This document shows, in pieces, positions 21,978-26,654 of a DNA stretch of 64,000 nt. This stretch comes from an uncultured Synechococcales cyanobacterium. GTDB taxonomy: Bacteria; Cyanobacteriota; Cyanobacteriia; Thermosynechococcales; Thermosynechococcaceae. Numbering within the stretch: position 1 is the first letter of the stretch; each line of letters opens with the position of its first letter. The notes below the pieces were generated by a model, which saw nothing but the letters and a program-made list of their open reading frames with translations, did no database searches and was not told the DNA's origin. Made by a program: the position numbers and the translations under genes. The DNA is taken from positions 19,182 through 83,181 of the forward strand of contig CADCWO010000246.1 in the NCBI GenBank assembly GCA_902806435.1. The letters run 5' to 3'.

Positions 21978-24572
21978 ATGTCCTTTGTCGGCTTGCATAT
22001 CCACAGTGACTACAGCCTGCTCGATGGGGCCAGTCAGCTCCCGGAATTAGTGGATCAGGCGATTCGATTGGGAATGCCAGCGATTGCCTTGACGGATCAC
22101 GGGGTGATGTACGGGGCGATTGAGCTGATCAAAGTTTGCCGAGGTAAAGGGATCAAGCCGATTATCGGCAATGAGATGTATGTGATCAACGGCGACCCGG
22201 AAAAGCAAGAACGACGGCCCCGTTATCACCAGGTTGTTTTAGCTAAAAACACCCAGGGCTACAAGAACCTGGTGAAGTTAACCACCATCTCTCATCTGAA
22301 AGGCATGCAGGGCAAAGGTATCTTCTCGCGCCCCTGCATCAACAAGGAGCTACTGGCTCAATACCACGAGGGGCTAATTGTCACCAGTGCCTGCTTAGGC
22401 GGCGAAGTTCCCCAGGCGATCCTGCAGGGCAAGCCAGAAATTGCTCGCCGCGTTGCCCAGTGGTACAAGGAGCTGTTTGGGGAGGACTACTATTTAGAAA
22501 TTCAAGACCACGGTTCCCTAGAAGATCGGATTGTTAATGTTGAGATTATCAAAATCGCGCGTGAGCTAGATATTAAAGTCATCGCCACAAATGACTCCCA
22601 CTTTATTTCTTGCTTCGACGTCGAGGCCCACGACGCCCTGCTATGTATTCAAACTGGCAAACTAATCGCCGAAGATAGCCGCCTGCGCTACAGCGGTACG
22701 GAATATCTGAAGTCCGCCGCAGAAATGGCCCAACTATTCTGCGACCACCTACCGGAGGATGTGATTCAAACGGCGATCGCGACCACGGTGGAAGTTGCCG
22801 ACAAGATTGAACCCTATCAAATTTTGGGTGAACCCCGGATTCCCAACTATCCCGTACCGGCTGATCACACTGCTGATACCTACCTGGAGCAAGTCACCTG
22901 GCAGGGATTGCTGGAACGGTTGAATCTTCAATCCCGCACAGACGTAGACGTTACCTACCGCCAGCGGTTGGATTATGAACTCAAGATGATGCAGCAGATG
23001 GGGTTCTCGACTTACTTTTTGGTCGTCTGGGACTACATCAAGTACGCCAGGGATAGCGGCATCCCAGTCGGTCCAGGGCGGGGCAGTGCCGCCGGCTCCC
23101 TAGTTGCCTATGCCCTAAAAATCACCAACATTGATCCGGTGCATCATGGGTTGCTGTTCGAGCGCTTCTTAAACCCAGAACGCAAGTCGATGCCGGATAT
23201 TGATACCGACTTTTGTATTGAGAAACGCGATCGCGTGATTGAGTACGTCACCCAGAAGTACGGTGCCGACCGGGTGGCGCAGATCATTACCTTCAACCGC
23301 ATGACCTCCAAGGCAGTCTTAAAGGACGTCGCCAGAGTGCTGGATATTCCCTATGGGGAAGCGGATCGGATGGCAAAGCTAATCCCGGTATCGCGGGGCA
23401 AGCCAGCTAAATTAAAGGTGATGATCTCTGAGCAAACGCCTGCCCCAGAGTTTAAGGAAAGGTACGACAAAGATCCGAAAGTGCGCCACTGGCTAGACAT
23501 GGCAATGCGAATTGAGGGGACCAACAAAACCTTTGGTGTCCATGCCGCCGGGGTGGTGATTGCCTCCCAGCCTTTAGACGAAATTGTGCCCCTACAGCGT
23601 AACAACGACGGCTCCGTGATCACCCAATACTTCATGGAAGACCTAGAAATGCTGGGCCTACTAAAGATGGACTTCCTTGGCCTGCGGAATTTAACCATGA
23701 TCCAGAAAACCGTGGATCTGATCAAGCAGACCCGCAACTTTGCCCTGGACGCAGATAACATTCCGATGGATGACCTCAATACCTTTCAGCTCCTAGGCCG
23801 GGGCCAACTAGAGGGTATCTTCCAATTAGAATCATCTGGGATGCGTCAGGTAGTCCGCGACCTCAAGCCCTCCAATCTAGAGGACATTTCTTCTATCCTC
23901 GCCCTCTATCGCCCTGGCCCCTTGGATGCCGGACTAATTCCCTTATTTATCAATCGAAAACATGGCCGGGAAAAAATAGAGTATCAGCATTCGTCTTTAG
24001 AGCCAATTCTTAAGGAAACCTATGCTGTTTTGGTTTATCAAGAACAGATCATGAAAGTAGCCCAAGATTTGGCCGGATATTCTTTGGGTCAGGCTGATCT
24101 GCTTCGTCGAGCAATGGGAAAAAAGAAAATTTCTGAGATGCAAAAGCATCGAGAAATCTTTGTTGATGGAGCGGCAAAAAATGGGGTGAAGCCCAAAATT
24201 GCTGAAGCATTATTTGACCAAATGGTGCTGTTCGCAGAATATTGCTTGAGCTATGACACTGAATTATTAACTGTTGAATATGGACCACTGCCCATTGGTA
24301 AAATTGTTGAGCAAGGTATTAACTGCACTGTTTATAGTGTCAATAATAATGGCAATGTCTATACGCAGCCCATCGCGCAATGGCATCATCGTGGTCAGCA
24401 AGAGGTTTTTGAATATTGTCTAGAGGATGGCTCAATCATTCGAGCGACAAAAGACCATAAGCTTATGACCACTGATGGCCAGATGCTACCAATTGATGAA
24501 ATATTTCAGCGGGGGTTGAACCTGAAGCGTTTAGAAAAACTGCAAACATGCTTACAACTTACCGCAAGTTAA
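21978..24572 (+). CDS. dnaE: DNA polymerase III alpha subunit, N-terminal part fused to split-intein IntN
   Basis: 864 residues from the ATG at 21978, preferred over a GTG at 21966 because the family begins MSFVGLHIHSDYSLLDG. The PHP domain (HIHSD, about 1-210) precedes the C-family polymerase core with PGRGSAAGSLVAY and catalytic MPDIDTDF (Asp407, Asp409). The N-extein is 755 residues, ending LFAEY. Residues 756-864 are IntN, beginning CLSYDTELLTVEYG. The ORF then stops, so a complete alpha subunit requires trans-splicing to the product of the gene at 25320. The second homing ORF overlaps its last 25 bases. GC content drops from about 52% to 40% near 23940. Confidence 0.96.
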   Translation: MSFVGLHIHSDYSLLDGASQLPELVDQAIRLGMPAIALTDHGVMYGAIELIKVCRGKGIKPIIGNEMYVINGDPEKQERRPRYHQVVLAKNTQGYKNLVKLTTISHLKGMQGKGIFSRPCINKELLAQYHEGLIVTSACLGGEVPQAILQGKPEIARRVAQWYKELFGEDYYLEIQDHGSLEDRIVNVEIIKIARELDIKVIATNDSHFISCFDVEAHDALLCIQTGKLIAEDSRLRYSGTEYLKSAAEMAQLFCDHLPEDVIQTAIATTVEVADKIEPYQILGEPRIPNYPVPADHTADTYLEQVTWQGLLERLNLQSRTDVDVTYRQRLDYELKMMQQMGFSTYFLVVWDYIKYARDSGIPVGPGRGSAAGSLVAYALKITNIDPVHHGLLFERFLNPERKSMPDIDTDFCIEKRDRVIEYVTQKYGADRVAQIITFNRMTSKAVLKDVARVLDIPYGEADRMAKLIPVSRGKPAKLKVMISEQTPAPEFKERYDKDPKVRHWLDMAMRIEGTNKTFGVHAAGVVIASQPLDEIVPLQRNNDGSVITQYFMEDLEMLGLLKMDFLGLRNLTMIQKTVDLIKQTRNFALDADNIPMDDLNTFQLLGRGQLEGIFQLESSGMRQVVRDLKPSNLEDISSILALYRPGPLDAGLIPLFINRKHGREKIEYQHSSLEPILKETYAVLVYQEQIMKVAQDLAGYSLGQADLLRRAMGKKKISEMQKHREIFVDGAAKNGVKPKIAEALFDQMVLFAEYCLSYDTELLTVEYGPLPIGKIVEQGINCTVYSVNNNGNVYTQPIAQWHHRGQQEVFEYCLEDGSIIRATKDHKLMTTDGQMLPIDEIFQRGLNLKRLEKLQTCLQLTAS
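24243..24569 (+). mobile_element. DnaE split intein, N-terminal half (IntN)
   Basis: Cys1 is encoded at 24243. Family features follow: CLSYDTELLTVEYGPLPIGK, CTVYSVNNNGNVYTQP, VFEYCLEDGS and the block B motif RATKDH (Thr69, His72 of the intein). The end (GQMLPIDEIFQR then LKRLEKL) aligns with the canonical end of IntN in Nostoc/Synechocystis DnaE. An 8-9 residue extra tail precedes the stop. Total length is 109 residues, against about 102-123 in known cyanobacterial IntN. All residues needed for the first splicing step appear intact. Confidence 0.95.
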
Positions 24573-25427: not shown

Positions 25428-26654
25428 TGCTTTAATAAATCCCATTCCACAGCCTACGGCTACGTCACCTATCAAACCGCTTACCTGAAGGCCAATTATC
25501 CCGTTGAATACATGGCGGCGCTGTTAACGGCCAACAGCGGAGATCAGGCAAAGGTGCAGCGCTATATTGCCACCTGCTTAAACATGGGTATCCAGGTGGA
25601 GCCGCCAAATATCAATCGTTCTGGGGTAGACTTCACCCCTTTAGAAGCAAGTATTTTGTTTGGACTGTCGGCGGTGCGGCATGTTGGGCAAGGGGCGATT
25701 GAAGAAATCCTGGCCGCGCGTCAGAGCGCCGAGTTTCAATCCCTGGCGGACCTGTGCGATCGCGTTGATTCCCGCGTGGTCAACCGCCGGGCTTTAGAAG
25801 CCTTAATTCATAGTGGGGCCTTCGATACCCTTGAGCCGAATCGCAATCAACTGATTCATGATCTTGAGCTAGTAATAGACTGGGCGCAGACCCGGGCCAA
25901 GGACCGTGCTGTTGGTCAGGGAAATTTATTTGACCTATTTGGTAGCAGTAGCACTAACAAAGAAAATTCCACCTTTGAATCTGCGCCAAAAGCTGCCCCG
26001 GTGGAAGACTTACCCCAAAATGAAAAGTTACGCCTCGAAAAAGAACTTTTGGGCTTTTACATTAGCGATCATCCCCTGAAGGCGGTGCAACAATCTGCCC
26101 AAATTTTGGCTCCGGTTAACCTACTCGAGCTGGAAGAACAGCCGGAGAATAGCCTAGTCAGCGCGATTGTGCTGCTGACGGAAGTGAAGCAGATCGTCAC
26201 CAAAAAAGGCGATCGCATGGCAATCGTTCAACTGGAAGACCTGACAGGTAAGGCAGAAGCGGTCGTATTCCCTAAAAGCTTTGAACGGATTGGCGCTTAC
26301 ATTACCCCGGATCAACGCCTAATGGTCTGGGGCAAAGTAGACCGCCGGGATGATCGGGTGCAGTTAATCATCGAAGATGCTGAACCTGTGGAAGAAGTAC
26401 GGCTGGTGATGGTAGAACTTACGCCTCACAAGGCAGCGGATATTGAAGAGCAGTATCGCCTCAAAACGATACTGCTGGAACAGGGTGGCGAAGGTGAAAA
26501 CGCCAAATTTCCAGTTGTGGCAGCGATCGGCAACCAGCACCAGCGTTCCTTTGTCCGCTTGGGGGCTCGCTTCCGGGTAGAAAATGACCAGGCTGCGGTG
26601 CAAGCACTGGTGAGCGCCGGGTTTCAAGCCCGTTCCTCCAGATTAACCAGCTAA
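25320..26654 (+). CDS. dnaE: split-intein IntC fused to DNA polymerase III alpha subunit, C-terminal part
   Basis: 444 residues from GTG: 36 of IntC and 408 of C-extein beginning CFNKSHSTAYGYVTYQ. Residues 37-240 continue the polymerase finger/HhH region, with helix-hairpin-helix-like LSAVRHVGQGAIEEI at about 118. The OB-fold nucleic-acid domain covers about 275-350 (LVSAIVLLTEVKQIVTKKGD, then MAIVQLEDLTGKAEAVVFP). Together the exteins give about 1163 residues, normal for DnaE. GC content returns to about 52% right after the splice junction. Transcription is very likely shared with dnaE-N and the endonuclease ORF. Confidence 0.95.
   Translation: MVRIVSRKSVGTQAVYDIGVSKDHNFLLANGLVASNCFNKSHSTAYGYVTYQTAYLKANYPVEYMAALLTANSGDQAKVQRYIATCLNMGIQVEPPNINRSGVDFTPLEASILFGLSAVRHVGQGAIEEILAARQSAEFQSLADLCDRVDSRVVNRRALEALIHSGAFDTLEPNRNQLIHDLELVIDWAQTRAKDRAVGQGNLFDLFGSSSTNKENSTFESAPKAAPVEDLPQNEKLRLEKELLGFYISDHPLKAVQQSAQILAPVNLLELEEQPENSLVSAIVLLTEVKQIVTKKGDRMAIVQLEDLTGKAEAVVFPKSFERIGAYITPDQRLMVWGKVDRRDDRVQLIIEDAEPVEEVRLVMVELTPHKAADIEEQYRLKTILLEQGGEGENAKFPVVAAIGNQHQRSFVRLGARFRVENDQAAVQALVSAGFQARSSRLTS

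Follow-up and report, generated by a model that had tools for sequence, protein, structure and literature searches.

How did the split DnaE intein of cyanobacteria come to be in two pieces, and what is an endonuclease-like gene doing between them? The question is raised by the dnaE locus of a 64,000-nucleotide stretch of DNA from an uncultured Synechococcales cyanobacterium (contig CADCWO010000246.1; hereafter the window), in which the two intein halves, IntN and IntC, flank a gene for a putative LAGLIDADG homing endonuclease (HEN). As judged from the sequences, the locus is best read as a split intein that owes its mobility to a free-standing HEN of phage type. The unit from IntN to IntC (24243-25427) is one of a family of cassettes with a gene tree in conflict with that of dnaE, and we consider it likely that it spreads by homing.

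The locus occupies the plus strand and consists of three overlapping open reading frames (ORFs) in the order dnaE-N+IntN, HEN, IntC+dnaE-C. Its features are the following:

21978..24242, plus strand: dnaE-N, the N-extein with PHP, polymerase and finger domains (ORF; Pfam and NCBIfam matches).
23904..24242, plus strand: AT-rich end of the N-extein, a presumed co-conversion tract (drop in GC content at third codon positions, GC3).
24243..24572, plus strand: IntN, 109 amino acids (aa), with Cys1 at 24243, and the dnaE-N stop (TIGR01445, 2e-12; PDB 4qfq_A, a DnaE intein, 2e-53).
24548..25327, plus strand: HEN, a free-standing gene for a helix-turn-helix (HTH) and double LAGLIDADG homing endonuclease-like protein, 259 aa (domains, predicted fold).
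24767..24796, plus strand: first LAGLIDADG motif, YLLGLIAADG, with Asp82 (invariant in the alignment).
25040..25069, plus strand: second LAGLIDADG motif, YVLGYFDGDG, with Asp173 (invariant in the alignment).
25308..25311, plus strand: GGAG in the 3' end of HEN, a Shine-Dalgarno-like site of dnaE-C (conserved spacing).
25320..25427, plus strand: IntC, 36 aa, with a GTG start, sharing 8 nucleotides (nt) with the end of HEN (TIGR01443, 5e-8; PDB DnaE inteins, best 1.7e-12).
25428..26654, plus strand: dnaE-C, the C-extein, which begins CFNKSHS, and its stop (PRK07373, 744 bits).

The N-extein and IntN form a single ORF (21978-24572) running from an ATG at 21978 to a stop at 24570-24572, an alternative GTG start at 21966 being possible; the extein matches model PRK09532 (1744 bits) and IntN the intein N-terminus model. 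The HEN ORF has no internal stop, matches LAGLIDADG_3 at 4e-13 in two stretches and is read in a frame unlike either neighbour's, overlapping dnaE-N by 25 nt. The dnaE-C ORF runs from the GTG at 25320 to 26654 and begins with a match to the intein C-terminus model. The ORFs and domain matches bear out the initial annotation, which had placed N-extein+IntN, an intact double-LAGLIDADG ORF and IntC+C-extein on one strand. An assembly or sequencing artefact was ruled out by the identical gene order in 16 other loci.

Both intein halves match solved DnaE inteins of the Npu/Ssp type, a cyanobacterial split intein reportedly described by Wu in 1998 and by Caspi in 2003. The insertion in DnaE at FAEY|CFN, the 109-aa IntN and the 36-aa IntC are those of that intein, with which the window shares insertion site, split point and IntN/IntC sequence. 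It also holds Cys1, TKDH, SN and Cys+1, which we take to be the residues with splicing roles. The difference lies in the arrangement: in the window the halves are adjacent and co-oriented with HEN between them, whereas elsewhere they mostly lie at separate loci, a separation that is usual in this intein type but not required for splicing.

HEN carries an N-terminal HTH followed by its two LAGLIDADG motifs. Their aspartates, Asp82 and Asp173, are invariant in 35 of 35 aligned sequences and are presumably catalytic. The AlphaFold2 model (pLDDT 90.2, pTM 0.86) predicts a LAGLIDADG fold, the best Foldseek match of which was I-Tsp061I (2dch; E 2.9e-9, with TM-scores of only 0.46/0.56). On two motifs with acidic residues and this predicted fold, HEN qualifies as a putative LAGLIDADG homing endonuclease. 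It matches the phage endonuclease family phrog_4645 over its full length (1.8e-40), and its relatives outside its own family are free-standing or intron-type phage endonucleases.

The cassette is not a lone relic, since the same site and order recur in 17 placed loci with full or nearly full-length HENs: the window, Microseira wollei NIES-4236, G067, G359, G377, G310, G506, G659, G661, G642, G656, G649, G643, G671, G665, G633 and G662. HEN follows IntN in 17/17 and precedes IntC in 16/17; in G633 the contig stops at HEN and IntC begins another contig. The finding that all 17 placed family members sit at this site speaks against a chance insertion of HEN without relation to dnaE inteins. HEN is sparse in whole genomes, being found in 5/386 of the phylum at 1e-10 and, with a profile at 1e-3, in 8/388 of the class, two of which (G421, G527) hold distant HTH-LAGLIDADG genes with no intein halves nearby. 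It is present in 16/61 genomes of family f11 and was found in none of the 28 genomes of the window's order (0/28). The window's own genome has a single full copy, three further matches being weak (E 0.24-0.38). A protein search at E <= 1e-3 returned 208 homologues, of which the 120 listed are 55-94% identical, several with cyanobacterial names; the initial annotation's view of the locus as a rare surviving intermediate does not fit this number. Viral carriage was considered and rejected, as only distant matches were recovered: none above 34% identity among the best 80 of 84 relatives in an IMG/VR scan, and, among 154 phage and 11 plasmid records, relatives that were uniformly remote and under 60% identity, with 20 of the 154 phage matches listed.

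Could the ancestor have been a contiguous intein, its endonuclease domain embedded, that broke in place into three frames, as the initial annotation supposed, a state that this lineage would have kept? HEN does lie at the usual B/F split point, and IntN and IntC share a frame in the window. However, no single frame runs through IntN, HEN and IntC, and in 17/17 loci HEN is read in another frame than IntN (overlap 25, 17, -1 or -5 nt) and carries its own HTH, start, stop and frame. The length of about 400 residues obtained by adding the three parts, which had been compared with a full-length intein, says little for the same reason. The full-length phage family match and the intein-less sister of the window, whose own intein appears foreign (see below), likewise argue against a vertical relic. 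We rejected a broken contiguous intein mainly on the frames and the HTH ancestry, and regard it as very unlikely.

The 3' junction is equally constant. Of the 16 loci that show both the HEN stop and the dnaE-C start, 15 have them overlapping by 8 nt, the exception being G310, in which the end of HEN is frameshifted. GGAG lies exactly 8 nt 5' of the dnaE-C start in all 16 of the full or nearly full HEN loci with a visible start; a looser Shine-Dalgarno-like motif was seen in 11/40 dispersed loci, a rough count in which a few starts were set by match and left unchecked. The presence of GGAG within HEN may be the simple reason why the tail of the gene is the last part to be lost.

We propose that the free-standing LAGLIDADG protein would cut intein-less dnaE at FAEY|CFN, that repair from a cassette copy would insert IntN, HEN and IntC together, and that the two resulting DnaE proteins would be rejoined by trans-splicing. 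Cleavage, trans-splicing, co-conversion and HEN-driven transfer are thus predicted steps. In eight genomes of genus g23, cassette and flanking dnaE trees mutually reject each other (AU test, p 6e-6 and 1.8e-52). The conflict runs in both directions: G642 and G067 share a cassette 92.9% identical with exteins at 86.6 and 84.0%, whereas in G377 and G649 the cassette is 87.5% and the exteins are 98.0 and 93.3% identical. In the former pair synonymous divergence (dS) is 0.25 for HEN and 0.64 for the N-extein. The intein-less G126, which has an exact empty site, nests beside the carriers G642 and G662 (supports 0.80-0.97). An intein tree (132 aa) was poorly supported. The ratio of nonsynonymous to synonymous divergence (dN/dS) is 0.09-0.20 in 36 pairs of nine HENs, and on these sequences the HENs of the window's relatives are evidently under purifying selection.

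These data also bear on whether HEN is a passenger, kept mainly for the ribosome site of dnaE-C, with the tree conflict arising from ordinary homologous recombination of dnaE and not from homing. The invariant GGAG would suit such a role, and the dnaE flanks too recombine between close species. Nevertheless, a ribosome site leaves the low dN/dS unexplained, and it accounts neither for the precise switching between empty and filled sites nor for the presence, within a family, of a foreign intein that does not go with the family's exteins. We therefore consider this explanation improbable and retain mobilisation by HEN as the preferred reading.

In the window genome itself, the sequences suggest a recent arrival of the cassette in a dnaE that had no intein. 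N and C matches were each found in 27/29 same-order genomes, its own included. G011 and G012 are intein-less at FAEY|CFN, and the extein tree places G012 as the window's sister (0.998; 0.996 in a second tree; the placement is weak, at 0.46, when G012 is left out). The exteins of the 21 split members of the window's family are 71-81% identical to the window's, and the inteins only 56-66%; in other families no more than five genomes (G201, G241, G397, G042, G064) have inteins with so low an identity. Those closest to the window's are from G405 of family f7 (81%), G186 (80%), and G671 and G661 (79%), and the inteins of HEN carriers, broken ones included, are 70-79% identical to it. The N-extein has a GC3 of 0.37 in its last 339 nt against 0.66 in the preceding 660 nt (Fisher 7.9e-7), the largest drop among the 63 dnaE genes left after filtering for coverage (the next, -0.12, is in the relative G010). 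GC returns to normal in the C-extein, and G011 and G012 have no comparable drop (GC3 0.55-0.64). We take this pattern to reflect an AT-rich cassette that homed into a dnaE lacking an intein and co-converted the flank on its N side.

The halves in the window might instead once have been dispersed and later rejoined with HEN between them, given that in most split genomes of its family a long distance or some kilobases of DNA separate the halves (same-order relatives have them on different contigs, at distant positions or about 7-14 kb from each other). Against such a reunion stand the 8-nt overlap present in 15/16 HEN loci and in remnants, an intein-less extein sister and an intein unlike the family's. 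We give it hardly any weight.

Family f11 holds a series of forms of this locus: the empty site, N-HEN-C, broken HEN, deleted HEN, one-frame refusion and dispersed halves. Of the 60 f11 genomes in the census, 31 carry IntN, 28 lack an intein at FAEY|CFN and one gave no match. The 31 divide into ten with an open HEN (two at contig edges), three with a broken HEN, six with adjacent halves and HEN mostly or wholly lost, three with a gap of 1.2-1.6 kb, three fused, three dispersed with a HEN stump, two with halves on separate contigs without a stump (G343, G680; a contig break is possible) and G634, in which the C half was not found. Two dnaE copies, one with the cassette and one intein-less (L120, L149), occur in the G659 assembly, which has 2% contamination; they may stem from a mixed population or from contamination.

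The steps of decay can be followed from locus to locus. HEN is interrupted by nonsense codons in G656 and G665, by a frameshift in Microseira, and in G662 by an insertion of about 2.5 kb that carries transposase ORFs of the IS630 and IS66 types (L150). Internal deletion has left residues 4-29 and about the last 15 in G663 and G676 (weak matches, E 0.01-0.03, in the right place and register), residues 1-91 and 232-259 in G440, on two contigs, and residues 216-259 in G430. The tail alone remains in G641 and G632 and, to judge from HEN-like sequence 5' of the dnaE-C start, probably also in G664, G667 and G677; G648 and G657 have adjacent halves with no clear HEN trace. IntN and IntC are fused in one frame, joined by few residues, in G184, G670 and G647 (L017, L145, L146), the first two with a common linker and the third separately.

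The halves are dispersed with a stump in G280 (N at 4.51 Mb, C at 2.88 Mb), G668 (0.27 and 2.53 Mb) and G674 (different contigs). About 30-47 C-terminal HEN residues lie 5' of IntC in these genomes (E 7.6e-8, 1.2e-6 and 6.0e-6), with the original 8-nt overlap kept, so that the separation there went through HEN. G280 and G668 represent one dispersal event, as their C loci are 97.7% identical and the same gene follows IntN. G671, which has an intact HEN, is 95.2% identical to G280 in the N-extein and 93.5% on the C side, and the G280 stump is closely preceded by a DDE transposase. The initial annotation's link between a homing element and the dispersed split form is upheld by these three genomes. 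At least in some lineages, the scattered split intein likely derives from decay of such a mobile cassette.

Several observations weigh against the homing account. The window HEN falls outside the dN/dS result, its dS being saturated, and ordinary dnaE recombination could contribute to the tree conflict. The G012 assembly is 74% complete and carries a second insertion (probably an intein) about 200 nt upstream, and that stretch contains a stop. The AT-rich tract gave a protein tree too weak (0.27-0.76) for naming a donor, and a search of 179 genomes with the cassette DNA found no donor, cassette-long matches being at most 70% identical; among the matches listed, those extending past IntN were G067 (70%), G310 (69%, partial), G506 (65%) and G440 (70%, partial). 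A HEN profile scan of 55 regions upstream of dnaE-C left 49 without a trace (of the other six, five contain a HEN, full or broken, and the sixth a stump), and in G039 and G241 unrelated genes occupy the gap between adjacent halves. Because of these HEN-free regions and unrelated gap genes, a claim for all cyanobacteria can only be conditional: the dispersed forms of other lineages may have arisen likewise. The full proposition would be that the split DnaE intein is a mobile element, that a phage-type HEN entered and split it, that the cassette homed repeatedly through cyanobacteria, and that dispersed and re-fused forms are remains formed many times, split dnaE being neither a single ancestral event nor a clade marker. 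We put this forward tentatively, at close to even chances.

The gap gene of G039 is of the Uma2 family (L010:3256-3948), and the gap ORF of G241 has no Pfam match (L012 gap). As to which half stayed at the old locus, gatA offers a hint, as it lies 5' of dnaE-N in Microseira (L005:208-1674) and, reversed, 5' of dispersed dnaE-C in ten f7 genomes; beyond this link, gene-neighbour clustering showed that other clades have little in common. In Microseira (L005:3992-4555) and in several f11 genomes (L017, L025, L027), dnaE-N has a second intein-like insertion 5' of the split intein.

With regard to known systems, large inteins with an embedded LAGLIDADG domain (PI-PfuI, VMA type) likewise hold their endonuclease at the B/F position and have a related fold, but the window has three ORFs in different frames and not one. 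Free-standing and intron-borne HTH-LAGLIDADG endonucleases of phages (phrog_4645, I-MsaII) share the HTH and both motifs over nearly the whole length, at about 25-27% identity among the matches listed; those are not within inteins. In a Desulfonema genome an intein-bearing dnaE that occupies two neighbouring frames has been described, and the passage concerned states that it is not the cyanobacterial case (PMC6390638). Our search of the openly licensed literature brought up no account of dnaE halves of cyanobacteria with a HEN between them.

The arrangement resembles the 'fractured genes' that Dassa and colleagues are said to have described in 2009, in which a free-standing endonuclease gene lies between split-intein halves; they are reportedly phage-like metagenomic genes with a new, non-LAGLIDADG endonuclease family. 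The window also has a separate endonuclease gene between co-oriented halves. In contrast to fractured genes as reported, it concerns a bacterial replicase, an HTH-LAGLIDADG protein and a visible decay series. The locus would work like a fractured gene, although we do not file it as a member. This kind of arrangement is already known, whereas the DnaE case, its mobility and the stumps appear to be new.

The decay series makes the question of origin directly testable and gives a route for dispersal, through HEN decay, insertion of an insertion sequence and separation through HEN. It also shows a natural return to one-frame forms, and it provides many counterparts, in split, adjacent and fused form, of the trans-splicing tool in widest use, matched to one another.

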